Shown here: in pieces, positions 9,764 to 56,840 of the stretch | Position numbering within the stretch: position 1 is the first letter of the stretch | Layout: each line of letters starts with the position of its first letter | Assembly (NCBI GenBank): GCA_027919835.1 | Contig: JANVFP010000020.1 | Coordinates: 62,001 to 126,000, forward strand | Direction of reading: 5' to 3' | DNA: 64,000 nt | From: Lentinula raphanica | Taxonomy: Eukaryota; Basidiomycota; Agaricomycetes; Agaricales; Omphalotaceae | The notes under the pieces: model-generated | Database searches by the model: none | The model's input: the letters and a program-made list of their open reading frames with translations, nothing else | Told to the model about the DNA's origin: nothing | Program-made: the position numbers and the translations under genes

Positions 9764-11438
9764 AGGATGATGAGGATGAGCCATAGAAAGATATTGTCAG
9801 CACCAGCGATGAAAGGCATCACAAAAAGCAAGATGAGGATGAAAACAAAAAAAAAATAAGACAAAGGAGGTTGACATTCACTCCAAAGGAAGACCTTTTA
9901 CCAAAAAAGCAAAAGTGTTGTTGGATAATGCCTATGCTATAGAAAGAAGTGCAAACAAAGTGAGCAAGAGTGTGCATACTTGCTATGCATATCTGAACTA
10001 AATTTCTGAAGTATCCCATGAGTTGAATGTGTTCAATGCTTTCCAAGCCTATTATGAAGTTCATAAAAAAGTAAAACAGAAATCCAATCATGAGTTCCTC
10101 TGACATTGACTTGTAGATTAGTCACTCAGTGAACATATTGAAAAAATTTTTAGAGCTATAATTAATTTGTCACAAAAGAGTACAGAAAAATGTTGAAGTC
10201 TTGCTTTTCACCTAGAGAAATAAAAAATTTAAAAGTTCATGTGCACGCTATGAAGAAAAAAATTGACTAATATAGGAACCAAGTTAATGACTTTTTAAAA
10301 AATGAAAAGGAGTTCAGTGGGAAAGTGAACATGAATATTAAAAAAATAATGAAGTCTGCATTGGTTCCGATATGTGATATCCTTCATGAATCCTTTTAAA
10401 ATGTTCTTCTGATAAGTTGTGTAGGAACAACATCTTTTTGAAACAGCTGATGTTCACCTAATTGGCTGAATTATTAGCACCAAGTGAAATCACTTAATAT
10501 GCAGTATGAGTGCCTTTTTTGCTGGCAATAAGATTGGGAAAGTTGCCAAGCAACAATTTGGATCAAAGATGGATACTCAATTTAACAATCTCAAAGCAAT
10601 GTTCTGAGTAGTAGAGATGAAAAATTAGCTGAGCTCATCATCACCATCACCAGGCATGCTGGTGAGCAAAAAAGACTGGGAGCTCCAAGCTCTAGGAAAA
10701 AATATTCACCTATGATATTTGTGAGTCTAGCCTATGAATTTGTATCACATAAACTCAATCATTTTGATAGAACAACTCTTTGGAGAGCGGCACAGAATTT
10801 CTTTCAACAATTTTCTTTATAAAGATTTTTTACTCCAAATCTGAATCTGGCTCTCTGGTGCAAAATTCTCCAAGACCAAAAAAATATCCAACTTCAAATC
10901 ATTACTCATTTCTGATGTCTGCTTGATTTTTAAGTCACAAATGACACACCTCTTATATAAATATGATCTAGTTTTGAATTAGGTGAATGAAGATGCTCTG
11001 AAGCTCAAGTTGGTAATGTATCAATTGGAATTTTGAACAAATGATATGCATTTTTTTTATCTAGCATAATTGATATGCTGATACGAGAACATCAACAGAT
11101 GAAGTCACACTGACAATTGAGAAACAGGGAGACATTTTCATTGTAGTAAATGTAGATGAAAAAATAGTTGTCAAGGTTTTTGATATCAAAAAATGGGTGA
11201 AAGCTGTGAGTTTCAATGTGCAGAGTATCAAAAAGAAAACAACAAATTAAATATATTTTTATGACTCAAATGACTCAGATGATGATGAGGAGGCATAGAA
11301 TGCTGAGTACAAGAACACAGAATGGGGATGATAATGATGAATCAGAAGATGAGTTTATTGCACATATAACAAATTTGAAGTATCACACTGATTCCTTGCA
11401 TCTGCCAAAGACAGGCAAGAGGAAGACAAGAAATAACT
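9764..11438. other. AT-rich stretch with decayed coding-like remnants, family unknown
   Basis: Begins in a purine-rich block (GAGGATGATGAGGATGAG) and continues with stretches whose codons look protein-like but are broken by stops in all frames. The best short ORF is 11,216-11,446 (+), acidic at its end. It may be an old transposon gene that has lost its G and C, but no domain was recognised. The element at 11,439 is inserted in it: the flanks join as GACAAGAAATAACTTAAAGG. Confidence 0.35.
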
Positions 11439-11539
11439 CACTTTAGGCAACCACCAAAAGGAATTATATTAGATAGTACAAGACCTGAAAATCCTCTATC
11501 TAATATGCTGAAAATCCCCAGGAATTCCCTAATGAAATG

Positions 11540-11830
11540 TCCCATTCAGCTGGAATGTCCTAGGTGGAATGTCCATATGGCCTGGGAGGTCCCATGTGGG
11601 ATGTCCCTATGGATGTGGGAGGTCCCATGTGGGATGTCCCTATGGATGTAGGATGTCCTTATGGATGTGGAATGTCCCTATGGATGTGGGATGTCCCATG
11701 TGCTGAGATGTCCCTATGACCTAAAATATCCCTATGACCTGAAATGTTCCATGTGGAATATCCTTATGGCCTGAGATGTCTTGCTCCTCATGTCTGGGAT
11801 ATCTCCTCACCTGGTATGTCTCTTTAGCTG
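11540..11830. repeat. Minisatellite of GATGTCCCTATGG-like units in the left arm of family B
   Basis: Irregular tandem units (GGATGTCCCTATGGATGTGG and GGTCCCATGTGGGATGTCCC) repeat about a dozen times. The right arm carries related units in inverted form at 13,540-13,680 (GGGACATCCCAGGCTATAGG), but fewer, so the two arms have expanded unequally. Confidence 0.75.
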
Positions 11831-12426
11831 GCATATCTCTCTGACCTGTTCATGTACTCAATGTTGATTACATAACCTATTAATCAATGAAAAATTTAAA
11901 ACAGTGACATGGTGTGTTATACACAACTATCACTAGGTACACACTCAATACATTTAATATACTCATTATATTTAATAATGAAAAAATTTGGAACAGTCAT
12001 CACTGTGTGATATAATTAACACACTCAATATCCATCATAGTTAAAACATTTGCACAAAAGATACATTGATACACTTGACTGTTCAGAAACAGAGCAGTGT
12101 TATCACTCATGATATTTATTGCACACAGTACTTCATAAGTACATATAGTTGAAACATTGTTATATCATGATACACATATAACAGTGAGTTTTGGGTGCTT
12201 ATGGGTGCTTATGGGTGCTTATTTTGTGTTTTTTGACTTGAAATGCATGAATACCACACTCAATAATTTTTGTGTAGGCTTTATATTGTGTCAGGCTGTT
12301 GTCTATATCATACTCCTTGAGAAACAATTTGGAGAACTCAAAAATACAGCTTGTAGGGCAGGATATATCATGATCTTTTATACTTTAGCAGTGTTTTATG
12401 TAAATGACAATGCATATATCTATGTA

Positions 12427-12650
12427 CATCAGGAAAAATCTATCTAGGCCCAGGTTGCCTGGAGACACCCCCAAAATTCCAGGCAGTTTCAAGTTCTTGA
12501 AATGATTTTAAGTCAACCTTATGTCTTCAGGCTTACCTGAGTTGCTTTGAAAATCTTTGGAAATCTTTGAGAATCTTTGGGAAGCCTGGGAAGCCTAAGC
12601 TTTTGGGGGGTGTCTCTAGGCTCTCTGGACCTAAGGTATTTTTCCTGATG
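12427..12650. mobile_element. MITE family M, copy 8 (224 bp), nested in family B
   Basis: CATCAGGAAAAATCTATC...TTTTTCCTGATG flanked by TA on both sides. The joined flanks (CTATGTAATGCAGGG) match the uninterrupted sequence CCATGTAATGCAAG at about 54,634-54,650 in family A, an occupied/empty site pair. Confidence 0.92.
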
Positions 12651-13807
12651 TAATGCAGGGACATTGAAGCTATTTCATGAGGAGAACACTCCTACAGCTT
12701 AATGACAGTGTTTTCACATAATCCAAATACTCACAATGATCATTGAATTCTTTTAGATACATCTATATATTTCATGTATACTAGTAGTAATATGTAGACT
12801 TGCATGCAACTACAGATGTCATATTCAATAACTCCAATTGTGAATCTCTCAACTGTATGACACAGAGTAAGCATAGGATAGGCTGTAGAATGAATCTTTT
12901 GATGACCCAGTAGTGGTTTGACTTCATAACATGGGTGTATGCATTGTGATTTGAACAATGCACTGTTAAATTATAAAAAATCATGATATAGCCTGTCTCA
13001 CAGGCTGTATTTTTGAGTTCTCCAAATTTTTTCTAAAGGAGTATAATATAGACAACAGCTTGACACAATATAAAGCCCACACAAAAATTATTGAATGTGG
13101 TATTCATGCATTTCAAGTCAAAAAACGCAAAATAAGCACCCATAAGCACCCAAAACTTGTTGTTATATATGTATCATAGTATAACAATATTTCAACCATA
13201 CTTACTTATGAAGTACTGTGTGCAATGAATGTTATGAGTGATAACACTGCTCTGAAGTTTTGCCTGTTCTCTGTACAGTGGATTGTATCAATGTATCTTT
13301 TGTGCAAGTGTTTTAATTATGATGGATGTTGAGTGTGTTAATTATATCACACAGTGATGACTGTTCCAAATTCTTTCATTATTAAATATAATAAGTATAT
13401 TGAGTGTATTGAATGTGTATCTAGTGATAGTTGTGTATATTGAGTATAACACACTATGCCACTGTTCTAAGTTTTTCATTGAATAATAGGTTATGTAATC
13501 AGACAGGTCAGAGAGATATGTCAGCTAAAGAGACATCCCAGATGAGGGGATATCCCAGACATGAGAAACAAGACATCCCAGGCTATAGGGACATCCCAAG
13601 CTATAGGAACATACCACCTGGGACATCCCAGGCTATAGGGAGATTCCACCTGAGATATCCCAGCTGAGTGGGACATTCCATTGAGAAATTTCCGAGAATT
13701 TTTAGCATGTTAGATAGGGGATTTTCAGGTTTTGTCCTATCTAATATGATTATCAACCTTTTGGTAGTTGCCTAAAGTGAATAACTTAAAGGAAGACCAT
13801 CAATGTA

Positions 13808-16201: not shown

Positions 16202-16254
16202 AATTTAAAATGTGGATTTGAAGCAGATTGGGCAGAGTCCAGAGTATGCTTTGA

Positions 16255-25050: not shown

Positions 25051-28000
25051 TCAATATATAGTCTGGTAGGCGTACTTTGTCTGTAAGTTGTTAACGAAAA
25101 ATGAAGAACACTTGTCCAAGATATTGTCCGAATCCCAGTGTTTGTCCCAGGATGTTCTACTTGGTACTAGCATGCAGTTCTGTCTGATATCAGAAAGGGG
25201 GATGATGGCTCCTTGGGGCACACCGTTGGAACCAATAGCAGGCTCTACTTTGTACATACCAGTAGCTGTATCGGGAAAAGATTTGAAACGTGAATACCAA
25301 GTAACGTACACCAAATGTTCTTTAGGCCAGTTAGCAGGAGCCTTTACTAGGGCACCACCATCATGAACCATCGTAGGAAGACGGAAAATAACTCGAAGAC
25401 GAGCAGCTCTACACCCTGCCAGATAGATAGAGTCTGGTGTGAGCATCATGGCGTTAATTCTGAAATAGAAAATCTGTCGGTCACCTTTAACAGCAGTAGA
25501 TTCAGCTTCATCATTCTCTAGTACTAGGACAGTGTCGAATCTTGAGGTTTTGTCCTGAATCGAAAGGGGTTGAGCCTTCATACGAGCCTTTTCTGGTTCA
25601 TCTAAAACTTGCGGCGGAATCAGCCCCACATTGTGCCAAATTTCCAGTGTATTGAAAGGTAATATTCCTTTCAGAGCCTTGGCCTTGCTTCTCTGGTCCG
25701 ACTTTGGCAGGAGTTGGAAGTTCAAGAAAAGCTTCAGAGCTCCCAGGAAACCCGGTGCGTCGTGTAAGAGCGTAATAGCAATCAGGGTTTTTTTGGGTTC
25801 GGAGGGATTTTTGGCCAGGCTTAGCTGAAACTCCACGGTTGAGTTTGGTCCACCCGATTTCCGTCGTTTGCGATTGCGTTTGAGTTGGCAAGTATGCTCT
25901 TCCTGGTCAGAGTTAAGACCTACGGGAGCCTTTGGATCCTCCTGACTATCGGAAACGTCCGGGGGCTTAGGAAAGGCCCAAGATTGGTAAAAGTCAAATG
26001 AAGCGACTTTTTCTTGGCGAGAAATGAAAGTGATCATTTGAGGGAAGAAATCTCTCTTGTTGCTAGCCCTCCAGCCCTCTTTAGCAAAATCGATATGAAG
26101 TCTTTCGAATGCCTCCGTATTCGTGTTGTCAGTGGTTCCTGTCCACCGGATCGAGTCAACGTAGTGAAGAAGGCTATGGAATTTCGGAATGTTGAAATGT
26201 TCACGCGCGCGTTGAGTAATGAAGTAATCGCGGTTTTTGTGCCAGGTATCCAGTTCTTTCTTCATGTATCCTAGAGTGTCCTCATCGTGAGAAGGATATT
26301 GGGCAAGTTGGATGAAGTGAAGAAGGGAACGACAAGCTGTAATCCCTTTAGCGTCCATTTTCCCAACTAGACAACCTAAGAGAATACGAGCTATGTGCTT
26401 TCTTTCTGTTCCTGCCATCTGGGAGAGATTGGAGATCCCTTTGGCAAAATGCCTTACCCCTGGAGTATGGGGTAGCTTGCTAATGCGTTCATCCAGCTCT
26501 TCCTCCCCTACGACACGTTGTACCCATTCTATCAGGTACTTGAAAACTCCCTGGTACAGTTGATGAAGAACGTCAGGAGCTATACACTTGTGTATGTCTG
26601 TGAGAGGAAAACCAGCCCAGAACGGTTCGTAATTCCCCCCGGCTACGTCGTCGACCATAGTCCTAGAGTGTACACTCCGACCTCCACCCTTCGCAGCTAT
26701 CCGAGCGTCGGTAATCTTCTCCTCAGTCCAATGCTGTGTTCGAGGCTCTCCAGGAGTGGGTAGGTTTAGATCGCCAGCCTTTCGCTGGCATTTCGGACAG
26801 GTACCATACTTGGTACAAGTGACGAGACACTGTTCAGGATAATCGCACACATAGGCCGCCAGGATTGGATAGACACGTCGAACAGCCCCGTCGCCTCCTA
26901 CCATTTCTACCCCAGGCCCTGCTGGATCTCTGGCTACTTTCAAAGACTCTAATATCATCGCCATTGATTTATGAAACACTTGATAATTACGAAGTTTGAT
27001 TTGAGTTTTGGAGAGGCCTTTCTTGGAAAGTTTATCGACGGAAAGATAGGCTATCAATACGCAAGCGCGAGATCCAGGCTTTCGACGAAGTTCCTTGGGA
27101 ATATTCCCTATCGTGAGGTAGACCGGATAAGCTGATTTACTTCCGGAGAACTGGGTAAGTTGCGTTTTATCCGTAGCTAGTATGACGGGTGCGACAGTGC
27201 CCCCTCTTGGTATACGTCTCTAGACAACATACTTATAGGCTCTTTCGAGAGGACAATAGATGACGTTAGCTTACCTGTACAGCATGCCAGAAACTTCCTG
27301 TCCACATTTCAGAAAATATCCTTTCGGTTTCTGCACAATTTGATTTCCTAAAGATTTTTTCCGGCTTGTACACCATGTGTTCAGTCAGAGAAGGATCACC
27401 CCAGAGTGCTTTGATAGCTTCTATAGGGTCTCTGTATCTGACCGTGAACTCTTCTTGGGGACGGTCCTTAAAGGACAGTCGTTTTTCGAACCAACGTCCA
27501 CCGCGATCAGGGATTTTATCCACCCTGTTCAACATAGATCGCGCATTTTCGAAAGAGAGACCAAGTTTTTCTTTCATCTAGGAGGGTTGAGTTGTAGTCA
27601 ATGATGGAGCAAGACAACCAGCAAAGACAAGCACCTGAGGGATATCGAGCAAATGATTGAACGTGCTTTGAGACACTTTCTCCTTTACCGCCCACTGAGA
27701 TATCTCCCATTCCAGACGTGAGGCGAATGGACTGTAAGAGTTCTCCTCCTTCCCAGAAGAAATTGCCAACCAACGTTCGTACACATGTTTCTCTACTCTG
27801 TACACTTTCCCAGCCTCGGGGTGCTTTTTCGTCATCCACGGTTCATCTTCTTCAACCAACGATCTAAACATAGGCTGATCGGAAGAAGAGGAACCGTCAC
27901 CACTGCCAGGAGCGTTGTCTTCTTCCTCAGGAAGAAAGTTGAAAAGGCTGTTGATGTCTTCAATGTTGGCACCGTACAGCTCCTGCAGGGAAGTACCCAT

Positions 28001-28433
28001 CTCTTCCTGAAGCAAGTTGTCTTCATCGAACTGCTCTGAAGGTTCCGAGCACAGGATTTCACCCTCCGTATCGTCATCAGGATCGCTTTCGTGGCGGATA
28101 TCCGAGTCTACGTCCATAGCTTCATCAGACGAACCGAAGATGTCGTCGTCATCATAGTTTTCCGGTCCTACGTCGTCTTCTGGACTAGTCGGAGAAGGGC
28201 AACGAGCTTGCACTCGCCTCTGAATATCAGGGAAAATGTCTGCGACATCAGGAGGGGATTGGCCAGTTCGTTTCCTAGTAGCTTCCTTTACAGTATTTTT
28301 GAACAACTGGTTTAGTTTTCGATCTTGGCTGATCCTATGTTGCATATGCAGGTCGTCCTTCTTTTGACTGATGTGAGCAGTCCTGTCCTGGGGGCGAGAG
28401 AAATATTTGTTGCAGACGGGGCACGAATAATCC
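25051..28433 (-). CDS. Plavaka-type (CACTA-like) transposase with N-terminal C2H2 zinc finger
   Basis: Catalyses cut-and-paste DNA transposition. Starts MDYSCPVCNKYFSRPQDRTAHIS at 28,433: CPVC with downstream His residues, a C2H2 finger. An acidic spacer (EDDVGPENYDDDD) follows, then the exon ending LLDIPQ. An intron (about 27,638-27,578, GTGCTTG to CCTAG) leads to MKEKLGLSFENARSML and ALWGDPSLTEHMVY. A second intron (from about 27,273) leads to the catalytic core: APVILATDKTQLTQFSGSKS (first Asp), CTKYGTCPKCQRKAG (zinc ligands), APDVLHQLYQGVFKYLIEWV, TNTEAFERLHIDFAKEGWRAS. The C-terminus ends QTKYAYQTIY. All pieces join in frame across consensus splice sites and no internal stop was seen. 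The Ulp1 gene lies just upstream on the same strand, the usual pairing in this group. Confidence 0.85.
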
Positions 28434-28738
28434 ATGGAACGCAAAGTTTATAGAGATGGTATTTTCTAGAAGGAATGTCTTGAAAGGGAAAGGATTAGCA
28501 GCAACAAGAAGAGTTTCTTAGAGGATGGAAGAGAGGGCAGAAGAGAAAGCGGGAAGGACACTCAGGACACGAGGAGAACACCTGGTAGACACGTTTTGAC
28601 GAGGAGAACACCTGGTAACACGTTTTGGGAAACATAAGCCGGGCTGGCTTGTATACGATTGCAGATAGAGACTGGCGGTGATGAAGATAGTACAAATTTC
28701 GAACAACAGGTACTCAGAACAACAAATACTGTGAAGGT

Positions 28739-30040: not shown

Positions 30041-31121
30041 GGTAGATACAAGGCTGAATGTAAGGAAAGGAAGAAAGGCTTGACAATTTTTCAGTAAGGT
30101 GGTTATTTTGAGAAATTGTTGACAATTGCAATGGCAGACGTAGCCAAATGGTCGGAATTGTCGATTATTCCTTTCGCGAGAAGCCCTGCATTTTCAGACG
30201 GTTATTTTAGCCTATGCCTCTAATCTGTACCACTCACCTTGATAACATAGAGAATACAGTTTCAGATATCGAAGCAAGATATACCCTGGGTTCAAAAAAG
30301 AAAGGCGAAGATAAAAACTGAGCGGAACAAAGCGTGGTTGAACTCAAGTTGAACAGGACGTAAAACACATGTCAATTTGTAAGGCAGTCTAGATGCGGCT
30401 ACAGCTATCTTATCTCTTATCTCTTATTCCCTCGTCTTCTCTACAAGATCTGTTTGAGCCCTCCAGGCTCCTGATTGCCATTCTTTTGTCCTCCAGCAGC
30501 ATGACGGGAACAAACTGAAGAGATTGAGCAAGAACGACGATACCAAATGATTAGACGATCGCATCGAGAACGCACTAAGGACACTTACCATCCCAGCCCA
30601 AACTACTCCGACTCGATAAAATTGGTAGATGTGACAAGCCACCCATCCAAGCAGAAGCACAATCTCTCTTGATTATATCTATGGAGGATACTAGCTTTTT
30701 GTGAAGAACCAAGTGTGACCCCAATAAGCTTTTCCCAAGTCCTTGCCGACAGGAGCTGGCCAGGTCTATCGTACGGTACGCCATGCTGCGATTGAAGATA
30801 GAGGAGAATACTGCCTGTGTGATTCTAAAGACCTCGATGATCATATAGATTGAAGAAATCAAACCGAGCTCAGTTTGTTTGAAGTCGTTCAAACAAAGGG
30901 TGCACACATACACGAGGCCCGAGCGAAAGCCAGTCTTCTGCTGAGGGATTAACATCGGGAAGGTCTTTGCTATACAGCTGCTGTGCCGCATGTGTTTTTG
31001 TTGACATAGGCAATAGGTTGACGTGGCTGAAAAGTGAATCAAAATACTTCCACCTAAGGCAATTTTAGCTCTACTTTACCCTTTGGATAGACTGATGACT
31101 TGAGCACGGTCAGCGGAGAGA
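30041..31121. other. No intact gene; decayed minus-strand coding remnant possible
   Basis: Minus-strand ORFs at 30,575-31,042 and 30,424-30,660 look protein-like in places but have no domain I recognise and no clear exon borders. The insertion site of the KDZ element is at its right edge (GGAGAGA, 31,115-31,121). The right terminus of the Plavaka element should lie here but was not identified. Confidence 0.35.
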
Positions 31122-31243
31122 CACCTGTAGCTGTAGAATCTACGCGAAGTAGCTCAATAAGTCTCGAGCGGGGCTTCGCGAAGTGGGTCGATACCCTTTC
31201 GAGGGGTCAAATATTATGTCAGTGCGGGCATACTGGGCTCCGG
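31122..31243. repeat. Left terminal inverted repeat of the KDZ element
   Basis: About 122 bp with some 85-90 percent identity by eye to the reverse complement of 43,754-43,875, ending near TACTGGGCTCCGGA. Confidence 0.9.
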
Positions 31244-31381
31244 ATAGCGCTTATTTCTTTCCTAATATGGTAGCCATGGGACACAGCCGTCGGATACTGT
31301 TTCGAATTATGATTATATATACATGAATACAAAATACGGTGAAAACAACAAATTCTCGGCATGTTCATATCAGTTCGGCAA

Positions 31382-35337: not shown

Positions 35338-35483
35338 GAAGAAATGGAGTCGTAACACTGACGGTCAACGAGAGTTTGGAGACACGTGACAGAAACATGC
35401 CACCAGCGCGTGATCCGTCGCGTGGACTTCATCGATTTTATCTCATCTGATCGATTGCAACTCGACCTCAACGCTCAACGTTC
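35338..35483. promoter_or_regulatory. Divergent intergenic interval between the KDZ transposase and the plus-strand gene
   Basis: 146 bp between two start codons facing away from each other, so both promoters must lie here or overlap the genes. No TATA-like box was identified. Function inferred from position only. Confidence 0.4.
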
Positions 35484-35515
35484 ATGTCTTCCTCCCAACG
35501 ACGAGGGATTTGCAC

Positions 35516-38500
35516 CACAGGATACAGTAAAGCTTTTGTAAAAAAGACTGATAAGTTATCGGGTACCTATTGCAAATAGTTGTGATAACCCCGAGGGGGT
35601 CCCGGAAATGGCCCCGGGGGTGGTCATGCCTGTCACCACCTGTCACATATGGCTTATATTTACTGTTTTGGGTAATTAATAATCATCCAGATATTAAATA
35701 AGCAGTACATTTTCAAAAAAACTCGAAAATCCATAAAAATTCATAAAAAAACCTAAAATGGCCTGATTAGGTCAGATCAGGATATGTAAGCAAATGACCT
35801 CATATGATAAAAAATGATGTAGGGCCAATGTAGGTACTAAAAATAGCCCTAAAAATCAATAAAAATGGAAAAAGTATTTAGGGATGGTATAGAGCCTATT
35901 GCAGGCCCAGGCACATCAAAATTACCAAAAAAGGAAAAAATTGATCATGATCTCATCTTGTAGCAAAAAATCTGAAAAAAATCCTAAAAATAGTCAAAAA
36001 ATTCAGGGGTGCTTTGTTGGCCCTGAAAACGCAAAATTAAAAAAATACGCGACAAGTGTAAAAATTTTCATCACTCCAAATCATCTCAAATCCACTATAC
36101 AGTCAGTATATATGATGTATATGCTATATTTAGCATCCTAGTACCTTTATTGGGCTAAAAATAGAACTTGATCTCATCTGATAGCAAAAAATCTGAAAAA
36201 ATCATAAAAATACTCAAAAAATTCAGGGGTGCCTCATTGGCCCTGGAAATGCAAAATAAAAAAATTTACACAACACAATTGAAAAACAACATCACTCCAA
36301 ATCATACCAAATCCACTACACAGTCAGTATATGTCATGTATATGCCATTTATAGCACCCCTAGTACCTTCAATCACTTATATCACTCAAGAATCATACCA
36401 AACTGAATAATTTGGGGAGTAAATATATTGTACATGATATTTTTAGCACACCTAGTACCCTTGATAACTTAGAACAATTTATATTACTCAATATGTCCAG
36501 TACACTTGGCACTTATCACACCTAACACACTAAAACTCATAACAGTACTTATATGTATTATACTTAACACAGTTGACAATGAAAATACTGTAAACAGTGT
36601 TATCAGTCATTATACTTAACATACTTGACAGTCAAAAAGTCGGAACAATTGTTATACTATAACACACTCATAACAACGAGTTTTGGGCGCTTATGGGCGC
36701 TTATTTGGTGTTTTTGAGTCGAAATTCATTAATAGCACACTCAATAATCTTTGTCTGGGCTCTATACTGTGTCAGGATGTTGTCTATATCATATTCTTCT
36801 AGATACAATTCAGGGAACTTGAAAATTGAACCTGTGGGGCTGGCTATATTGTGATCTTTTGAAATATAACAGTGTTTTATGTAAATGTCAGTGCATAGGG
36901 TTATGAGAAGAGTCATCCTACAACCTATTCTATGCTATCTCTATGTGATACAGCCAAGAGATCTGTAATGGGGGTCATTGAATATGACATCTATTGTTAC
37001 ATGTAAGTGTAGACATCTATAGTGTACATGAAACATGTACATGTATATCACAGAGTCCAATAGTCATAGTGAGTATCTGAACCATGTCCAGATAATTCTA
37101 GTAGACTGTAGGAGTGATTCCCTCATCAACCACCATCAGTATACTTGCATTACATGGACATATGCATTGATATTTACATAAAACACTGTTATATTTCAAA
37201 AGATCACAATATACCCAGTCCCACAGGCTGTAATCTTGAGTTCTCCGAACTGTATCAAGTGTATTATGATATAAACAACATCCTTACACAATATAGAGCC
37301 CAGACAAACATTGTTGAGTGTGCTATTAATGAATTTTGACTCAAAAACACCAAATAAGCGCCCATAAGCGCCCAAAACTCGTTGTTATGAGTGTGTTATA
37401 GTATAACAATTGTTCCGACTTTTTGACTGTCAAGTGTGTTAAGTCTAATGACTGATAACACTGTTTACAGTATTTTCATTGTCAACTGTGTTAAGTAAGT
37501 ACTGTTATGAGTTTTAGTGTGTTAGGTGTGATAAGTGCCAAGTGTACTGGACATATTGAGTAATATAAATTGTTCTAAGTTTAAGGGTACTAGGTGTGCT
37601 AAAAATATCATGTACAATATATTTACTCCCCAAATTATTCAGTTTGGTATAATCCTTGAGTGATATAAGTGATTGAGGGTACTAGGGGTGCTATAAATGG
37701 CATATACATGACATATACTGACTGTGTAGTGGATTTGGTATGATTTGGAGTGATGTTGTTTTTCAATTGTGTTGTGTAAATTTTTTTATTTTGCATTTCC
37801 AGGGCCAATGAGGCACCCCTGGATTTTTTGAGTATTTTTATGATTTTTTCAGATTTTTTGCTATCAGATGAGATCAAGTTCTATTTTTAGCCCAATAAAG
37901 GTACTAGGATGCTAAATATAGCATATACATCATATATACTGACTGTATAGTGGATTTGAGATGATTTGGAGTGATGAAAATTTTTACACTTGTCGCGTAT
38001 TTTTTTTTATTTGCGTTTTCAGGGCCAACAAGGCACCCCTGAATTTTTTGACTATTTTTAGGATTTTTTTCAGATTTTTTGCTACAAGATGAGATCATGA
38101 TCAATTTTTTCCTTTTTTGGTAATTTTGATGTGCCTGGGCCTGCAATAGGCTCTATACCATCCCTAAATATTTTTTTTGCATTTTTATTGATTTTTTGGG
38201 CTATTTTTAGTACCTACATTGGCCCTACATCATTTTTTATCATATGAGGTCATTTGCTTACATATCCTGATCTGACCTAATCAGGCCATTTTAGGTTTTT
38301 TTATGAATTTTTATGAATTTTCGAGTTTTTTTGAAAATGTACTGCTTATTTAATATCTGGATGATTATTAATTACCCAAAACAGTAAATATAAGCCATAT
38401 GTGACAGGTGGTGACAGGCATGACCACCCCCCGGGGCCATTTCCGGGACCCCCTCCAGGTTATCACAACTATTTGCAATAGGTACCCGATAACTTATCAG

Positions 38501-38532
38501 TACTTTTTACAAAAGTTTTACAGTATCAGCTG
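35516..38532. mobile_element. Family A foldback element (3,017 bp) nested in the KDZ element
   Basis: Starts CACAGGATACAGTAAAGC and ends GTTTTACAGTATCAGCTG. TTTGCAC is duplicated on both sides (35,509-35,515 and 38,533-38,539). It is nearly all arm: about 1.4 kb at each end are inverted copies of each other around a ~260-bp centre (36,900-37,165). Arms contain the inverted pair GAGTTTTGGGCGCTTATGGG (36,670) and its complement (37,360-37,385). The ORFs inside are arm sequence read in different directions and are not genes. Same family as 53,211-56,336 (insertion opposite in orientation), 1-374 and 8,425-9,763. Confidence 0.92.
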
Positions 38533-39189
38533 TTTGCACGCCGACCTACTACGCCGATAACATCCCAGGTTTCACTCAAGCTCACAGAGGCAAACCCTAC
38601 TATATCATAACGGGTGGACCATATGCTGGCATCTATCGATATTGGTATGTTGAACCATATTGAGACCGATCTGAATATACTGAATGTCTGGAATAGGCGT
38701 CTAGCTAACGAACGTGCCACACACTCTTCTCAAACTGCTCGTGGTGTGGAAAGTATCGAAGCTGCTTGTGATGTCTGGGCATGGACTTGTAGAGAATATC
38801 ACACGCATGACAATCGCAATGAATTAGTTCTCTATTCGGATTCTGTCTGCGAGCCCCGCGAAACCCGCGAAACCCGCGAGGTTGTAGAACAGCCCATTAT
38901 CTCCCACGATGATCAAAGGAATCGTCCCCAAATCAATATAGCCCAGCTCAATATCGAATCGAGGCCCAATCCTGTTATCGATTCCCCTCCATCTCCATCC
39001 AAAAAAACTTCGACAAAAGTTCCCTCTCCAAAGACTTTTTTCAATCCACCTATCGTGCTTCAGACATCGAAGCACCTGTAGCTGTAGGTTTTATGCATAA
39101 TGAGTGGGCAACTGCCTGAGCCCTGTTTTGCATTACTAAGGGGCAGTTGCCCACTCAGCCAATAAATGAATATTTAAACTGGGATTAAG

Positions 39190-39261
39190 CACTGAATCAG
39201 GCCCCTCCCGTTGGGGTTAGCTATGCTAACCCCAACATTAGGGAGGGGTCTGATTCAGTGC
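39190..39261. repeat. Near-perfect hairpin inside the 583-bp element
   Basis: CACTGAATCAGGCCCCTCCC and its complement (GGGAGGGGTCTGATTCAGTG) flank an inner pair GGGGTTAGC/GCTAACCCC around a tiny loop, giving about 32 paired bases with few mismatches. Confidence 0.88.
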
Positions 39262-39277
39262 CAAACATAGGCCAATA

Positions 39278-39372
39278 AGGGTTAGGGGGTTAGGGGTTGG
39301 GTTAGGTTAGGGTTAGGGGTTTGGTTAGGGGTTAGGGTGGTTAGGGGTTGGGTTAGGGGTTAGGGGTTGAGG
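39278..39372 (+). repeat. Telomere-like degenerate (TTAGGG/TTAGGGG) array, interstitial
   Basis: About 95 bp built of GGGTTAGGGG, GGTTAGGTTAGGG and GGGGTTGGG units, close to the TTAGGG telomere repeat of mushrooms but irregular in G count. It lies inside a transposable element with target duplications, 39 kb into the window. Confidence 0.85.
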
Positions 39373-40080
39373 ATATATTGATAGACCTTAAAAAAGACCC
39401 CCTATAGGGGGTGTCAGTTTTTCCCAAAAATGGATATTTCAAAGATACAATTAATTCTTTGTTTCAAAAATATTAAAAAATGTTTTTGCCTATATGTTAT
39501 GCATAACATGTTGCCCAAGTTGTTATGCATTACATCCACTGCTATAGTGAGATATAGTGAGGCTTATTGAGGGGTAGGCAACTGCCCCTTGGTAATGCAA
39601 AACAGGCCTCAGGCAGTTGCCCACTTGTTATGCATAAAAGTTACAGCCTCAGCTGATCGAAGACGTCGAAATCGCGCTCACAAAGTCCCTCGAAAAAGCC
39701 GTCTACATCGAAATCACCATCTTCGAACCAGCTGAAAGGGATCGATATCGATGCTATCTCCTCTCTCCTCTCTGATCAATCTATCAGTACACCCGGTCCA
39801 TCCAAGAAAGGACGTGCAAACCCGTCGCAAAGTTCATCGACGAGTGGAGGTGTCTTTGTCGTCAAATGGGAGGATTCATACGAAATACATTCTACTCTGT
39901 AAGTTGGCTTTCTTGACTCAATTTCTCACTCAGACTAATACCTTCAATACTTAGAGAAAGCGCGAAGCTAGCTTTCGATCGAGCGCAGAGTTTGGATAAC
40001 GAAGTTACATTGCGCTATTCCCGTTCGTGGGATGCGGCTATGGCTTTTGCGATGACTGATTGATTTCTTGCTATCCGATG

Positions 40081-40133
40081 ACACTCTTGCTGACACTCTT
40101 GCTATCCGATGACTCCTTGCTATCCGTTGAACT
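40081..40133. repeat. Short tandem CTTGCTATCCG.TGA units
   Basis: CTTGCTATCCGATGA and variants recur three to four times at 40,065-40,135, directly after the TGA of the plus-strand gene, possibly in its 3' untranslated region. Confidence 0.6.
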
Positions 40134-40353
40134 CAGTACTATGAATAGGCCCTAATGTATATACAATATAATTCTCATAGCGGCTCAATTGTACCTACTC
40201 AAATGAACATTGTTATCAATCTCATGCAAATTTTCGGATATGTTTGACATTCAGAAGGAAAACGCCGAGTTCGTATTGGCGGTTTTGTATATACAGGTTC
40301 AAATATATAGTGGTACGAGTTACGTGAAACGACGGCAGCAAAAAAACATGAAT

Positions 40354-43300
40354 TCAGCCAAGTCTTGCTCTTCTAGTCAGACGTTCGGTAGAGGTGGTGG
40401 AAGAGGGTGGTGCTTTGCGCTTGATACGGCGATCATAACCTCTGTAAAAAATATGTTGAGATAAAGCGTTAGAAATACAACGAACGTTGAACACGTACCC
40501 TTTTTCATATGCCATGTCTTCAATGGCAGCCCGCACGTCAGATAAAAGAAGTAAAACCTGCGAAGTCTGCTCTTCATCATCGCTTACCCTCAAGAACCAC
40601 CAACGAAGATACAGCAGCACGGTCACCATGCCGCACTGTCCTGGTCGGTGGATTCCGTCCCAACTTCCCTCTCCTTGACCTTGTGGCACGATATGCCACT
40701 CAGCGTCCCTCTCCCGCCACGCCGGATTGATGACCGACCACCACTTACGAAGATCTCGACCTAAGCTCTCCACCGTCAATCCGTTGAAGTCATTATTGAG
40801 GGTGGCCTGTACGTTCTTCCGATTTTTGAAGTACCATTCAACTAAGCGAGGACGGACATCCTTGGCCGTAGGAAACGAGGCTTTCTATGTAGAACAAATA
40901 ATTATGAGGCATCAGAATGAATTAAATGAATGAAAGACTGACCCGGCCGCTTGGATCTTCGAAAAGATACGTGCGCTCAAGGATGACCAAACCCTCCAGA
41001 GCTTTCCTCCACTCTGTAGATTGCTGCTCCAACCCCCCGAACGCTTCCACCGCACGAGATAACCAAGCTGGGCAGTCTGCTAGCGTCACCGAATCCTGTG
41101 TCGAGCCCGTTGAATTGTTGCCGGTCCCATCTGTCAGTTCGTTACCCTGAGCCACGACTCCATCAGCGGAAGGTGGCGGAGATGAGTTAGTATGAGAAGA
41201 TAAGGGTCCATTGCCAGAGGGTGCATTTGGTGTGAGAGAAGAATTTTGATGTACATCACCGCCGTTCGTATTGGGCATTGAATCCGTGGAAATGGGGTGT
41301 CCCTTCCCGCTGTCTGTGGGTGTTGCCGAAGTGGTATCCATGGAAAGACGTTGCAATTCTGGAACTGTGGTGCAATTGAACTGGATGGGAAGAGAGCCGG
41401 ATCGAATTGGGGGTTTTGAGGCGATTACAGCACTGGTACGAGGCTCGGATCCCGAACGAATAGACTTTGAGTTGATTGAGGGAATGTGAGGAGAGTGAGA
41501 AGAGTGAGGAGGAGAGTGAGAAGAGTGAGGAGGAGAGTGAGGAGGAGGAGAGTGAGGAGGAGGAGAGTGAGGAGGGGAGCGAGGAGGGGAGTGAGGCTTC
41601 GGGAGTTGGACTTGTTGTGCCTTCCATACCTCCGCATGCTCCATGAGAACGTCAAGATTATGTTGTCGAACGCGACCGGATTGTGAGTTGAGCATTCCGA
41701 TTGAATCTCGGCGAGCGGGTGTGAGCATGCTAGAAAGGTAGGCTTTGAGGTCATCCGGGAGGGGCGGTCCTTCAGGCTCTGGGGTGGATTCAGCATAGAA
41801 GTGGGCCATAACCACATCGTCATCGCGGGTTTCGACGAACTTTCCGCGTAGTTTTCGTAAGTCGACCACTTTGCCGTTTTCATCACGAAAGACTTCCTCC
41901 TCTTCTTCGGACCCTTCCTTTCCGCTTTCTTCTTCGTCCTCCTCTTCTTCATCCTTGTCCTTCCCCTTCCCCTTCCCCTTCGCCTTCCCCTTCGCCTTCT
42001 TGCGTAGCCGTTTGGATTTTCGGCGCGTCTGAGTGTCGATTCCATCCTCGCTCGGCATACGAATAAGGGAGTCATCATTCAATGGAGATGTTGATTTGGA
42101 ACCGCGATTGACGCCTTCTGGATGGATGAGACCGGGCTCCCCGAGCAATTCTTCTAAAAATACATATCAGAGTATGAACGATCAGAAGTGAAGGCGACGT
42201 ACTAGGATCTTTGTCTGATAAAAATAGCATAAACAGAGACATGACGTTCTTCATAAAATATTCTTCATTCCATCGTTCAAACGTTTGAGGGTTGAGTCCG
42301 CCGCTCGTGCCAGAGTTAATCCTATGAGAGATCAGACACAACGACTATTTGCGTAAGGATGGACGACTCACGTAATGAGAAAATAGTCTTCGTCATCATT
42401 CGCTGGGGCAGCTCCCCCCAATAAGCAGAAGTTCAGACCAGTGTAGAGTCGAAGGATATCCAGTAAGGGCTGCAGGAACTTTGTGAGAGCTTCACGACAT
42501 CTAGAAGTATGTCAACATCTCTATAACGAATACAAATCAAATACGTACACTTCACGAACTGAGTCGTCTATCCCGTCCTCGTTGAGCTCCTCTAACGATA
42601 CAGGTTCACCAGACGTAACCCTCGTGAAAAATTCCAGCTTTTGTTGATACACCTCCTCGACAAACTCTTCAACCTCTTTCTTCACCTCGTCTGGCTCCTC
42701 TTCAAACAGTTCTTCGGCAACCTGACATCTAAAATTCAAAAGGTCCGCGCGTTTGACAGGATTGACGGCCACGCGTGCGTCCACCTCTTGTCGAACCTTG
42801 ATTTGATTCTCCGGCCGTTTCATCCACACTTTGTACAGAAGCGCTCGACGAGGTGCTCCGCCAGCGAATCCGAGGGCCTTGCGAAGGACAGGAGCGAGCG
42901 GTGTTTGTTGGATGGGAGCGGTCTTGGCTGCCTTCTTCACACGCCGCCAGAACCAACGCGAAATTTGCTAGTAATAGATATTAATAACAATTCCATAGCT
43001 AACAATGAGTTGAATATGCACTGCTTTTCCGGCTATCTGAACTGCTGCCTGAACTTGTTTTCGATCGGCTTCTAGCTCAGCCCTTGCTTCCTCGGAGAGC
43101 GAGTCATCTTCAGTGTCCAATGGATTGAATTTTTCGGGCTGTTCATCTTGGTCATGCCACGGCCACCTGTCGAACCATTCTTTGCAGATTCGAGACATAC
43201 AAGTATTCTTGGACTTTGTTTTGGTGTATTCGGGTAAGGAATTGCATAGAAATTGAAGACGAGGACCTGAGAAATTCCCCTGGTTACCGCGCCTGGGCTT

Positions 43301-43576
43301 GTTTGGATGTGACTCCTCAGCGACATCATCTTCGCCATCACCGTTCCCTTCGCCTTCAGGATTATGCGTTTGCGGCGCCTTGGACATAGCAGTTTCGGAT
43401 GGCAATCGAGACGTCGAGTTCGAGGCAACATTCGAGGGTGTCGATGATTTCGAGTTACGAACACGGTCTTTCTTGGCTCTAGATTTTCTCTTGGGTTTTA
43501 GAGCAGCCTTTGGGGCAGATTTGGCAGTGCGAGAAGAACGAGCTTGGTCCCCGTCGTCGTCCATGGGTTCGGGCAT
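40354..43576 (-). CDS. Second KDZ-element protein, large and charged, function unknown
   Basis: Starts MPEPMDDDGDQARSSRTAKS at 43,576. Order: basic low-complexity start (AALKPKRKSRAKKDR); a conserved-looking block LPEYTKTKSKNTCMSRICKE and WFDRWPWHDQDE; a coiled, acidic block (EEPDEVKKEVEEFVEEVYQQ); FLQPLLDILRLYTGLNFCLL; NPQTFERWNEEYFMKNVMSL; an acidic/basic linker (KGKGKGKDKDEEEEDEEESG); a repeated HSPP tract at about 41,600-41,490; then KALEGLVILERTYLFEDPSG, VRPRLVEWYFKNRKNVQ and DLRKWWSVINPAWRERDAEW, ending ERLTRRARLG. About seven exons with GT-AG introns of 50-60 bp, the last at about 40,500-40,443. No catalytic domain recognised. Position inside the TIRs and full-length frame suggest a role in transposition or as cargo. 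Confidence 0.8.
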
Positions 43577-43752
43577 GTGGAAGGTGTGGAAGGTGTGAAC
43601 GTAGTGTCAGGTGACGTGGTAGCTGAGTGAAACAGTGAGAGAGAGATGCCGTCTGATGCCGGGTGTCAACGCTGTAGCTGTGCCGAGGAGGTAATAATAC
43701 GGTAAATGATAATTTGTGAAAAATATCCAGATCTGGAAGGGTTACGTAATCG

Positions 43753-43875
43753 TCCGGAGCCCAGTACGCCCGCACTGACATAATATTTGACCCCTTGAAA
43801 GGGTATCGACCCACTTCGCGAAGCCCTGCTCGGGACTTATCGGTCTACTTCGCGTAGATCTTACAGCTACAGCTG
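43753..43875. repeat. Right terminal inverted repeat of the KDZ element
   Basis: Inverted partner of 31,122-31,243, ending CTTACAGCTACAGCTG next to the duplicated GGAGAGA. Confidence 0.9.
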
Positions 43876-51797: not shown

Positions 51798-52958
51798 CAG
51801 CTGTAGCTGTAAGAACTTCATGAAGTAGACTGAGAAGTTTCCATATATGCTTTGCAAAGTAACAGGAGTGGCTTTCCAGGCTTAAAAAACTCTTCCGGGC
51901 AGGCCAGTAGGGCTCCGGGGGGTACCCGGCTATTTATTATATTTATTAATATTTAATAGTTCTTTTATTATTTAATAAATATATTATAATAAATTTACTT
52001 TGCAAAGCTGTGCTGCACTTTGCAAAGTGACTACGTTTATGGCAATTATGAAATCAGGTAAATTAGGGTTACATCATTATGACATGAAAACTTACTGTTT
52101 CAAGGTTTTTCATTGTTAAGTGTGTTAACTGTATTGAGTATAACATACATGAACACTGTTCCAAGGCTTCTTCATTGTTAAATATATTAAGCATAACACA
52201 CATGTTACTGTTACAAGGTTTTTTCTTGTTAACTATGTTAAGTGTAATAAACATTGAGTATAGTAAATATATTGAATGATTTAGGCTATCTGAGTGTTTG
52301 AGGGCACTAGGTGTGCTAAAAATAGCATATAGATCATCTATACATAATGCCTGATGGTTGTGATATCATTTGAAGTAATAAAACTTTTGACACTTGTCGC
52401 ATATTTTTTTTATTTTGTATTTTCAGGGCCAACAAAGCAACCCTGATTTTTTTGAGTATTTTTAATGTTTTTTTCAGATTTTTTGCTACCTGATGAGATC
52501 AAGTTCTATTTTTAGACAAATTACCTTTTTAGGCAATTTTGATGTGCCTGAGGTAACCAGGACATCACTGCAGCTATTTTTGGTTCCCTGTGATTTTTAG
52601 CATTTGAAGATCAATGATGTCATATTATACATTTTTTATCCAACAAGGCAAGAACCAAAAAAGGAAGTTGATGACATAATGATGTAACCCTAATTTACCT
52701 GATTTCATAATTGCCATAAACGTAGTCACTTTGCAAAGTGCAGCACAGCTTCGCAAAGTAAATTTATTATAATATATTTATTAAATAATAAAAGAACTAT
52801 TAAATATTAATAAATATAATAAATAGCCGGGTACCCCCCGGAGCCCTACTGGCCTGCCCGGAAGAGTTTTTTAAGCCTGGAAAGCCACTCCTGTTACTTT
52901 GCAAAGCATATATGGAAACTTCTCAGTCTACTTCATGAAGTTCTTACAGCTACAGCTG
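51798..52958. mobile_element. Inverted-repeat element (1,161 bp) with KDZ-like termini, no matching target duplication
   Basis: Starts CAGCTGTAGCTGTAAGAACT; the same sequence inverted ends it at 52,958. Arms of about 285 bp are nearly identical and include TTTGCAAAGT motifs, GGTACCCGGCTATTTATTA and GGTAAATTAGGGTTACATC. The first 17 bases equal the right end of the KDZ element. The centre (52,100-52,560) resembles the right arm of family A. Flanks GCAAACC and TGGTGGG do not match, and the two sides belong to different genes. Confidence 0.85.
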
Positions 52959-55900
52959 TGGTGGGTCGGCGTCGATAAATGAAGCAAGTGGTTCAACAAC
53001 CGACTTCAGAGCTTGGCATGGATTGTCATTGGTATGCCACTGTTCAACGATAACCTCAGGATTTGCCAGCATTCGACGATATAACCAGACTGGAATCCCA
53101 ACCTAAACAGCGACGAACTTAGTTTTACTGCGATATTTTGCCTCACAGTGGGCTGTTACTTACACGAAGGCAGGACTCGGCAATTTCTGGTCGATCCATA
53201 AGGGCTCCGACAGCTGATACTGTAAAACTTTTGTAAAAAGTACCGATAAGTTATTGGGTACCTATTGCAAATAGTTGTGATAACCCGGAGGGGGTCCCGG
53301 AAATGGCTCCGGGGGGTGGTCATGCCTGTCACCACCTGTCACATATGGCTTATATTTACTGTTTTGGGTAATTAATAATCATCCAGATATTAAATAAGCA
53401 GTACATTTTCAAAAAAAAGCCAAAAATTCATAAAAATTCATAAAAAACCTAAAATGGCCTGATTAGGTCAGATCAGGATATGTAAGCAAATGACCTCATA
53501 TGATAAAAAATGATGTAGGGTCAATCTAGGTACTAAAAATAGCCCAAAAAATCACTAAAAATGCAAAAAATATTTAGGGATGGTATAGAGCCTATTTCAG
53601 GCCCAGGCACATCGCATTCCCAAAAAAGGTAAAAATTGATCATGATCTCATTTTGTAGCAAAAAATCTGAAAAAAATCCTAAAAATAGTCAAAAAATTCA
53701 GGGGTGCCTTGTTGGCCCTGAAAATGCAAAATTAAAAAAAATACACGACAAGTGTAAAAATTTTCATCACTCCAAATCATTCTAAATCCACTATACAGTC
53801 AGTATATATGATGTATATGCTATATTTAGCATCCTAGTACCTGTATTGGGCTAAAAATAGAACTTGATCTCATCTGATAGCAAAAAATCTGAAAAAATCA
53901 TAAAAAATACTCAAAAAATTCAGGGGTGCCTTATTGGCCCTGAAAATGCAAAATAAAAAAATTTACATGACACAATTGAAAAACAACAAACATCACTCCA
54001 AATCATACCAAATCCACTACACAGACACAGTCAGTATATATCATGTATATGCCATTTATAGCACCCCTAGTACCCTCAATCATTTATATCACTCAAGAAT
54101 TATACCAAACTGAATAATTTGGGGAGTAAATATATTGTACATGATATTTTTAGCACACCTAGTACCCTTGATAACTTAAAACAATTTATATTACTCAATA
54201 TGTTCAGTACACTTAGCACTTATCACACCTAACACACTAAAAGTCATAACAGTACTTATATGTATTATACTTAACACAGTTGACAATGAAAATACTCAAA
54301 ACAGGGTTATCAGTCACTATACTTAACACACTTAACAGTCAAAAAGTCGGAACAATGTTACTTGAATAACATAACACACCCATTGTTATACTATAACACA
54401 CTTATAACAACGAGTTTTGGGCGCTTATGGGCGCTTATTTGGTGTTTTTGAGTCGAAAATCATTATAGCACACTCAATAATGTTTGTCTGGGCTCTATAC
54501 TGTGTCAGGATGTTGTCTATATCATATTTTTTCAGACACAATTCAGAGAACTCGAAAATTCAACCTGTGGGGTTGGCTATATTGTGATCTTTTGAAATAT
54601 AACAGTGTTTTATGTAAATGTCAATGCATATGTCCATGTAATGCAAGTATACTGATGGTGGTTCATGAGGGAATCACTCCTACAGTCTACTAGAAGTATC
54701 TGGACATGGTTCAGATACTCACTATGACTATTGGACTCTGTGATATACATGTACATGTTTCATGTACACTATAGATGTCTACACTTACATGTAACAATAG
54801 ATGTCATATTCAATGACCCCCATTACAGATCTCTTTGCTGTATCACATAGGGTTAGCATAGAATAGGTTGTAGGATGACTCTTCTCATGACCCAGTAGCA
54901 GTTTGACTTCATAACATGGGTGTATGCATTGACATTTACATAAAACACTGTTATATCACAAAAGATCACAATATAGCCAGTCCCAAAAGCTGTAATCTTG
55001 CATTCTCCGAATTGTATCAAGTGTAGTATGATATAAACAACATCCTTACACAATATAGAGCCCACACAAAAATTATTGAGTGTGCTATTAATGATTTTTG
55101 ACTTAAAAACACCAAATAAGCGCCCATAAGCGCCCAAAACTCGTTGTTATAAGTGTGTTATAGTATAACAATGGGTGTGTTATGTATATAAAGTAACATT
55201 GTTCTGACTTTTTGACTGTTAAGTGTGTTAAGTATAGTGACTGATAACACTATTTTGAGTATTTATTGTCAACTGTGTTAGACATAATACATATCACTAC
55301 TGTTCCAAGTTTTAGTATGTTAGGTGTGATAAGTACCAAGTGTACTGAATATATTGAGTAATAAAAATTGTTCTGAGTGTTCAAGAATACTAGGTGTGCT
55401 AAAAATATCATGTACATTATATTTACTGAATGTTGTCAGTCTGATATGATTCTCGAGTGATATAAGCTATACTGAGTGATTGAAGGTACTAGAGGTGCTA
55501 AAAATAGTATATACATGATATATACTGACTGTGTAGTGGATTTAGTATAATTTGGAGTGATGTTGTTTTTCAATTGTGTCATGTAAATTTTTTTATTTTG
55601 CATTTTCAGGGCCAATAAGGCACCCCTGAATTTTTTGAGTATTTTTTATGATTTTTTCAGATTTTTTGCTATCAGATGAGATCAAGTGCTATTTTTAGCC
55701 CAATACAGGTACTAGGATGCTAAATATAGCATATACATCATATATACTGACTGTATAGTGGATTTAGAATGATTTGGAGTGATGAAAATTTTTACACTTG
55801 TCGTGTATTTTTTTTAATTTTGCATTTTCAGGGCCAACAAGGCACCCCTGAATTTTTTGATTATTTTTAGGATTTTTTTCAGATTTTTTGCTACTAGATG

Positions 55901-56840
55901 AGATCATGATCAATTTTTACCTTTTTGGTAATGCGATGTGCCTGGGCCTGAAATAGGCTCTATACCATCCCTAAATATTTTTTGCATTTTTAGTGATTTT
56001 TTGGGCTATTTTTAGTACCTAGATTGACCCTACATCATTTTTTATCATATGAGGTCATTTGCTTACATATCCTGATCTGACCTAATCAGGCCATTTTAGG
56101 TTTTTTATGAATTTTTATGAATTTTTGGGTTTTTTTGAAAATGTACTGCTTATTTAATATCTGGATGATTATTAATTACCCAAAACAGTAAATATAAGCC
56201 ATATGTGACAGGTGGTGACAGGCATGACCACCCCCCGGAGCCATTTCTGGGACCCCCTCCGGGTTATCACAACTATTTGCAATAGGTACCCGATAACTTA
56301 TCAGTGTTTTTTACAAAAGCTTTACTGTATCCTGTGGCTCCGATGACCGCTCGCAAGCTTTGTACCTTGTACGCTTGATGTACTCCCCATCGGGGTTCCA
56401 CTGACTGAATCCAAGTGATACGAGCGCGTGATTCCAGACAGGCACGCTGGCAGATTCTCCACGCCATCAAAGTCTCAGAAAAAGTGGATGCTTCATGTTT
56501 AAGATGACCCAGAAGGTATTGAATATGACTGCAGTATATTTTGACTTTGCTATCATTTGGAGCAGTGGATGCAGGTGCAGAAGAGGAGAACAAGGCGGCT
56601 GGAGATAGAGAAGATGGACCCGAAGTATGAATGTCGCGAATGATGGTCATATAGTACTCATTCTCCAATGCTTCAATCATCTCCTTCGGCAGGTGGCCAA
56701 TGGGTTCTGCAGCAAGTTTGAAGCCATCAATTGGTTGAAAAAGTGCTTCATCTGGAAGTAGCCAGAGGATATTGTCTAATTCTGGTAGAGGGATTATGTA
56801 AGGAGTTGGTTAACAACGCCGATCACGGACCCAAAGCTGG
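52959..56840 (-). pseudogene. Agaricomycete-type gene of unknown function, split by a family A element
   Basis: N-terminal half on the minus strand at 56,840-56,344: LPELDNILWLLPDEALFQPI, IYCSHIQYLLGHLKHEASTF, VEPRWGVHQAYKVQSLRAVI. After the 3.1-kb insertion the frame continues at 53,203 with LMDRPEIAESCLR, a GTAAGT donor near 53,163 and a next exon GIPVWLYRRMLANPEVIVEQ ending at the element border 52,959. This order (RAVIGA..MDRP, then a GIPVWLYRR-like exon) is familiar from hypothetical proteins widespread in mushrooms, of unknown function. Removing the insertion and one GCTCCGA restores the frame. The C-terminus is lost at 52,958. Confidence 0.75.
53211..56336. mobile_element. Family A foldback element (3,126 bp) with 7-bp target duplication
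   Basis: Starts CAGCTGATACTGTAAAAC and ends GCTTTACTGTATCCTGTG. GCTCCGA is repeated on both sides (53,204-53,210 and 56,337-56,343). Arms of about 1.4 kb are inverted around a ~290-bp centre near 54,635-54,925. Nearly the same sequence as 35,516-38,532, inserted the other way round. Small ORFs inside (54,484-54,693; 54,853-55,137) are arm sequence. Confidence 0.92.

Follow-up and report, generated by a model that had tools for sequence, protein, structure and literature searches.

Ends of two KDZ transposon lineages and their probable non-coding riders in Lentinula raphanica

Introduction

Plant miniature inverted-repeat transposable elements (MITEs), such as mPing with Ping and Stowaway with mariner-like elements, are mobilised by the transposase of another element with which they have mainly the terminal sequence in common. 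Here we describe transposons of the little-studied KDZ superfamily, together with several non-coding families that probably ride on them, in the fungus Lentinula raphanica; the analysis is centred on a 64,000-nucleotide stretch of contig C20 (C20:62001-126000, hereafter the window), which holds a 12,754-bp element with a CxC2-KDZ transposase gene. Kyakuja KDZ transposons have 7-bp target-site duplications and 5′-CA..TG-3′ termini, and those of Laccaria are reported to be without terminal inverted repeats (Kojima 2025, PMC12730594). KDZ1 to KDZ3 of Cryptococcus neoformans combine CxC1 with KDZ, have terminal inverted repeats and leave duplications of 8 or 4–8 bp, and the study reports no mobilisation of clearly non-autonomous copies (PMC12810828). 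In Pleurotus, intact KDZ genes are likewise preceded by CxC2 (PMC7641404). Outside the superfamily, Galileo, a Foldback-like element of Drosophila, has long arms, 7-bp duplications and subfamilies with a common terminal 40 bp for which one transposase is presumed; it belongs to the P superfamily, has the target consensus GTAGTAC and undergoes ectopic recombination with exchanged duplications (PMC2775673).

The window element resembles Kyakuja in its KDZ transposase, 7-bp duplication and CA..TG termini (PMC12730594), but it carries terminal inverted repeats (123 bp at 92%) and is accompanied by non-coding families whose ends are similar; because of the inverted repeats we file it as a CxC2-type KDZ element and not as Kyakuja. 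Its KDZ domain (PF18758, 1.1e-40) and CxC cluster (CxC2, PF18803, 1e-35), with a duplication (GGAGAGA) within the 7–8 bp of the superfamily, are those expected of a KDZ element. The 8-bp duplication of Zisupton was not found as an exact case in elements with K-type ends (CACCTG or CACCCG at the CAC end), family A or the 583-bp family, and a second KDZ lineage is mixed, with 7 or 8 bp. As with the plant MITEs, non-coding passengers would be cross-mobilised here; the superfamilies differ, however, and the passenger called family A is 3 kb long and mostly a full palindrome. We found no description of a non-autonomous family tied to KDZ by its ends in the excerpted open-licence literature that was searched, and nothing useful on Lentinula KDZ elements in literature listings.

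Results

Ends of KDZ elements and non-coding families

A first-pass annotation of the window had proposed that one KDZ transposase moves five elements that share only about 16 terminal bases and whose interiors differ greatly. The five 7-bp duplications that it listed (Table 1) are all exact on re-reading, and both end matches that it reported are correct, one of 15 bases between the left ends of the 583-bp and KDZ elements and one of 17 bases between the ends of the 1,161-bp element (family E) and the KDZ right end. For the 1,161-bp element it had listed no duplication, and there is none. The similarity extends further than was claimed: in ungapped comparisons of 60 terminal positions, the K-type, 583-bp, E and A ends resemble one another along some 60 bp. 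Genome searches covered one assembly of 49.06 Mb in 75 contigs; introns split the KDZ gene, and the genome matches are lower bounds. Terminal 15-mers occur 224, 124 and 133 times in this genome, compared with 0, 0 and 4 times for a backward-read control.

The ends of the 583-bp family agree at 54/60 and 51/60 positions with those of a 4,038-bp element that holds a KDZ domain (C17:301987-306024). This end match to a KDZ-bearing element and the same duplication length are what would be expected of a non-autonomous CxC2-KDZ derivative. A fetched E end agrees with a KDZ element on contig C39 at 46/60 and with the window KDZ element at 45/60, and the window E copy does so at 45/60 and 44/60, respectively. 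Family A ends (CAGCTGATACTGTAA and CACAGGATACAGTAA) agree with KDZ ends at 25–33/60 and with E at up to 37/60; the best value for a KDZ-bearing element, 33/60, suggests homology and yields no close partner, and the second A end, CACAGGATACAGTAA, which the annotation had not mentioned, has 7 mismatches to the KDZ left end over 15 bases. Family B, to which the element at 11,439 belongs, does not qualify as a CxC2-KDZ derivative by its ends, which agree with those of K-type KDZ elements at 13–19/60 (15 expected at random) and at 43/60 with those of a CACTTC-ended KDZ element. These comparisons suggest that family A, the 583-bp family, E and the CxC2-KDZ elements have a homologous end (the CAGCTG set), and that family B belongs with the CACTTC-ended KDZ elements (the CACTT set) and not with the former.

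One may postulate that the mirror-image elements were instead moved by another superfamily that leaves 7 bp, either a P-type foldback such as Galileo or hAT7, and that the KDZ likeness of their ends is convergent. Galileo is the closest structural parallel, given its mirror-image arms and 7-bp duplications, with the structural difference that A arms are mostly spacer-free, and a half-exchanged duplication among our copies would also be Galileo-like (PMC2775673); hAT7 likewise leaves 7 bp (PMC12730594). However, A ends at the values above and E ends at 26–46/60 agree with KDZ ends, compared with 10–19/60 for end pairs across the CAGCTG and CACTT sets, and K-type ends bound KDZ genes with an equal duplication length. 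Moreover, a search for a target-site consensus across 61 duplications of the CAGCTG set gave none that was evident, in contrast to GTAGTAC in Galileo. Judged by ends and duplications, convergence on KDZ ends seems highly improbable.

Target-site duplications across the genome

Family A pairs (n = 40) were chosen by a spacing of 2.3–3.8 kb among the first 100 sites listed per tip, a few further pairs being left out, E and B pairs were chosen by spacing, and the 583-bp sample comprised the 20 best-scoring copies after the window's own. Exact 7-bp duplications flank 27 of the 40 A pairs, with two more at one mismatch, and 18 of the 20 583-bp copies, with one at one mismatch and one without any; no pair or copy of either family had an exact duplication of 5, 6, 8 or 9 bp, which bears out the earlier expectation for these two families. 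Among mixed K-type end pairs, 4 of 5 are exact at 7 bp, including a 17.2-kb pair on contig C5 with no KDZ domain among the matches listed. Two further KDZ elements have 7-bp duplications (CATTATC at C39:383417-392994, where the right end was computed, and ATCGTCT at C20:552849-562237), and for another at C17:270931 a second end was sought and not found. With the window element included, KDZ-bearing K-type elements for which both ends were read thus have 7 bp in 6/7 cases and none in one (on contig C2). For E, 5 of 15 pairs are exact at 7 bp. When left and right flanks were drawn from different copies, the 7-base agreement rate was 0 in all five families compared, so the 7-bp duplications exceed chance. 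A rule that a CAC tip and a CAG tip are always required was considered and set aside: it fits family A, with exact duplications in 27/38 mixed pairs and 0/4 same-tip pairs, but E has CAG tips at both ends and exact duplications in 5/15 pairs.

The pattern differs for family B, in which eight pairs comprise four with 7 bp, three with 8 bp and one without a duplication, the window copy having 7 bp; a ninth B-ended pair (contig C11, 12.75 kb) has none. KDZ elements with CACTTC ends have 7-bp duplications in 3/3 cases. Small elements with CACTTC/CACTTT ends (B-prime) have 8 bp in 4/4; three of these have identical flanks, so only two are independent.

These data bear on the proposal of a single KDZ transposase for all five elements sharing about 16 terminal bases. 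In its favour, all five have 7-bp duplications, and the tips of the K-type, 583-bp, E and A elements are alike. Nevertheless, the 583-bp and E ends fit different CxC2-KDZ groups, the end similarity covers 60 bp and is subfamily-specific, and the element at 11,439 has unrelated ends that resemble those of a separate KDZ lineage and belongs to a family with 8 bp in 3/8 pairs, all of which makes a common transposase for the five very hard to credit. What stands of the first-pass annotation is a shared KDZ-type end with 7-bp duplications, where present, in family A, the 583-bp family, E and CxC2-KDZ; the element at 11,439 falls outside it. The annotation had named other duplication lengths, or an unrelated autonomous element with exactly the same termini, as evidence that would count against it. 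If the element at 11,439 is its 'family B', which it did not state, then the first of these applies, 3 of the 7 fetched copies with a duplication having 8 bp, and the second nearly does, through an unrelated KDZ element with termini that are similar but not identical.

As a separate observation, three B-prime elements at C48:274206-298825 agree in their flanks (10 bases shown) and in their 8-bp duplication and lie 10–12 kb apart; a segment carrying a B-prime insertion seems to have been multiplied.

CACTTC-ended KDZ elements and a shared mirror-image core

A terminus related to the B ends, CACTTCAGGCAACC, occurs 28 times, and a KDZ domain lies 1.9–3.2 kb inside it at 6/28. The protein at one such locus (L008) is 28% identical to the window KDZ exon over 116 residues but 66–90% identical to 23 loci of its own kind, and for this reason the CxC2-KDZ and CxC1-like KDZ genes form two lineages. 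A CxC1 match lies above the Pfam cut-off in L008 and just below it in L022. In its CxC1-like cluster with KDZ, inverted repeats and duplication lengths, this second lineage resembles KDZ1 to KDZ3 of Cryptococcus (PMC12810828), with the difference that CACTTC/CACTTT ends here also bound the non-coding B and B-prime elements.

The interiors follow a different pattern from the ends. Positions 1210-1750 of family B match family A at 77% over 541 bp (E-value 4e-118), and in an E element (L175, first 2,164 bases) 71% of the length matches A, with a best stretch at 87%; A and E also have one 149-bp stretch at 93%. The 583-bp and KDZ elements have no interior match to A at E <= 1e-4. The earlier statement that interiors differ greatly therefore stands for these two elements and fails for A, E and B. 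Family A aligns to its own reverse complement over its full length in 30/42 copies, with arms 90–98% identical and in most copies joined without a spacer; in mixed-tip copies the self-alignment halts five bases from each end, where the tips differ (CAGCT versus CACAG). Since A, E and B have a common core, one non-coding core carries the ends of two KDZ lineages, and we propose that the families sort between these lineages by their ends and not by their interiors.

We put forward more tentatively that family A is an orphan 3-kb non-coding palindrome spreading locally by means of a foreign CxC2-KDZ transposase, its core having been fitted with the ends of two lineages through modular end capture. 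If true, such capture would let one non-coding core switch transposase, and the pattern suggests how a non-coding core could persist after the loss of its helper, by exchanging its ends.

Family A and its transposase

K-type elements have a KDZ domain 2.0–2.4 kb (in one case 3.6 kb) inside the CAC end, which is the case for 8/46 CACCTG and 7/94 CACCCG ends (15/140); the 46 are what remains of 72 CAC-tipped ends, among the 100 sites listed of 133, once 26 ends of 583-bp copies are subtracted. At the same place relative to A CAC ends, a KDZ domain was found in 1/100 and 0/21 cases (1/121, covering 121 of 124 exact ends), and this single case belongs to an element that has CACTTC ends and a duplication of its own. 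The difference is significant whether the case is set aside (15/140 versus 0/121, Fisher p = 7e-5) or counted (6e-4). As a control, KDZ domains on the outer side numbered 2 and 3 for the two K-type ends, 7 and 1 for A and 0/28 for the CACTTC ends; A copies do adjoin KDZ genes, but from outside.

Two candidates for an autonomous A element were rejected. At C7:1057876-1069729 the outer flanks are without a duplication and the right-hand A match is merely 56 bp, and the KDZ gene sits in C7:1053206-1068340, which has CACTTC ends and its own 7-bp duplication and is not A-ended. At C1:504544/510667 the duplication ACTTGGG belongs to the A pair 504544-509047 itself, and the end found with the KDZ gene at this site is CACCCGTAGCTGTAG. 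A comparable candidate for E, the 12.9-kb E-ended C20:820022-832916, was rejected too: of seven reading frames tested, two match reverse transcriptase and five match nothing, with no KDZ domain listed. Family A, the most frequent kind seen, seems to lack a relative of its own that carries a transposase.

An alternative explanation is that each non-coding family is, or was until recently, served by a KDZ element of its own with matching ends, that of family A being missing from the assembly or lost, with no cross-mobilisation at all. KDZ elements whose ends are similar do exist for the 583-bp and B families, and with a median identity of 91.6% (559 copy pairs) family A is old enough to have outlived its partner. 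Against this, four A pairs are 99.84–99.97% identical, with each copy in its own duplication and the two about 4–11 kb apart; near-identical copies with different duplications imply that family A moved, and a working transposase acted, recently, and such neighbouring copies are the pattern that local cut-and-paste reinsertion leaves. There is also no A-ended KDZ element among the exact A CAC ends covered, and the base following the exact A CAG end is identical in 223/224 cases, so that these 15 bases gave no sign of a clearly different family. A dedicated partner for each family is accordingly the less likely account, although a good deal more plausible than a single transposase for all.

Several rearrangements involving family A were also noted. 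An A copy with the duplication ATTAGTT splits a KDZ domain into two halves at C7:828300-832600 (L055), and C1:623299-627186 and C3:337834-341687 suggest the same; family A seems to interrupt genes of the helper it presumably uses. On contig C2, two oppositely oriented A copies that lie 5 kb from each other and lack duplications of their own (L042, C2:418994-422224; L043, C2:427489-430687), have right-hand 7-mers that are reverse complements (CCAGAAC and GTTCTGG), as after ectopic recombination, and a left-hand pair that does not fit. An A copy with two CAG tips at C16:248200-253313 (L184, L185) and the B-ended 12.75-kb copy at C11:1370273-1385022 (L186, L187) each lie between inverted duplications whose identity is 99.9% in the initial 0.8 and 1.0 kb that were read; these are either real palindromic duplications or assembly artefacts.

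Proposed mechanism

We consider it probable that two KDZ lineages with separate end signals and several non-coding riders are present, and that family A is moved in trans by CxC2-KDZ. CxC2-KDZ would recognise an end of about 60 bp, composed of a tip, CA[C/G]..G..RC.GTA[A/G], and a subterminal part; its elements would usually pair one CAC tip with one CAG tip, and joining after a staggered cut would leave 7 bp. The 583-bp family and E would be derivatives of particular CxC2-KDZ subfamilies, whereas the second, CxC1-like lineage would use CACTTYAGGCAAC ends, leave 7 or 8 bp and carry family B. Ends of both lineages would have been added to the common mirror-image core of A, E and B. For family A, mobilisation in trans is the most likely route, by a CxC2-KDZ transposase able to act on ends that have diverged; of the cross-mobilisation first proposed for the whole set, this is the one case for which it is still the best reading. 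End sequences, duplication lengths, the common core, KDZ partner elements with duplications and near-identical A copies in different duplications are direct observations. We infer the binding of protein to ends, mobilisation in trans and the order of events that joined ends and core, and the action of CxC2-KDZ on family A in particular because of the end similarity and equal duplication length.

Several points weigh against this account and call for caution. Exact duplications are lacking in 13/40 A pairs (in 2 of which a single base differs), in 10/15 E pairs (one fits 8 bp with a mismatch and nine have none), in one of the five K-type pairs (that on C2) and in the window E copy, and the KDZ ends closest to E reach only 46/60. 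The KDZ places used for the end test, 110 of 158 matches excluding most second exons and further matches beyond those listed, give a lower limit, and a KDZ gene specific to A may have been lost, may be missing from the assembly or may carry diverged ends. The choice of CACCCG as an end pattern followed its sighting on two KDZ elements, both among its 7 hits, and the CxC1 label depends on L008 (over the Pfam cut-off) and L022 (just under). This genome nonetheless offers both matched and mismatched ends, along with two lineages and an orphan family that is abundant, as a test set with which KDZ end specificity could be measured.

Features of the window

Within the window KDZ element (Table 1), which has one family A and one 583-bp insertion nested in it, the extent of the coding region is that covered by related proteins (about 34912 to 32121), and the four best relatives of the KDZ exon are all from Lentinula raphanica.

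Table 1 Mobile elements and transposase gene parts in the window (window coordinates)
Feature	Position	Strand	Remarks
KDZ element, 12,754 bp	31122-43875	-	CxC2 + KDZ gene; left end CACCTGTAGCTGTAG, right end CAGCTGTAGCTGTAA; duplication GGAGAGA at 31115/43876
CxC2-KDZ transposase coding region	32121-34912	-	
KDZ-domain reading frame	32684-33562	-	
CxC2 reading frame	34250-35086	-	
Family A element, 3,017 bp, mirror-image	35516-38532	.	Nested in KDZ element; duplication TTTGCAC at 35509/38533; no reading frame >82 aa
583-bp family element	39073-39655	+	Nested in KDZ element; duplication ATCGAAG at 39066/39656
Family E element, 1,161 bp	51798-52958	.	CAGCTGTAGCTGTAA at both ends, perfect; arms 291-303 bp; no target duplication
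Family A element, 3,126 bp, mirror-image over full length	53211-56336	.	Duplication GCTCCGA at 53204/56337
Family B element, 2,341 bp	11439-13779	.	Ends CACTTTAGGCAAC; duplication AATAACT at 11432/13780; core homologous to A
Family A copy end, rest beyond window	1-374	.	
Family A-like fragment	8435-9527	.	

A repeat family of about 224–228 bp is found at positions 2908, 8162, 9524, 12425 and 17401; one copy of about 224 bp is inserted in the middle of the family B element (about 12427-12651) and is unrelated to B. Elsewhere in the window, 25051-27057 matches a Plavaka transposase (PF18759, 8.1e-51), 27578-28444 has a weak C2H2-finger match below the Pfam cut-off, and 57284-57451 is a tandem array with a 12-bp unit. 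A partial retrotransposon polyprotein at 61408-63711 has matches to reverse-transcriptase RNase H, integrase, Tf2-1-like SH3 and chromo domains.

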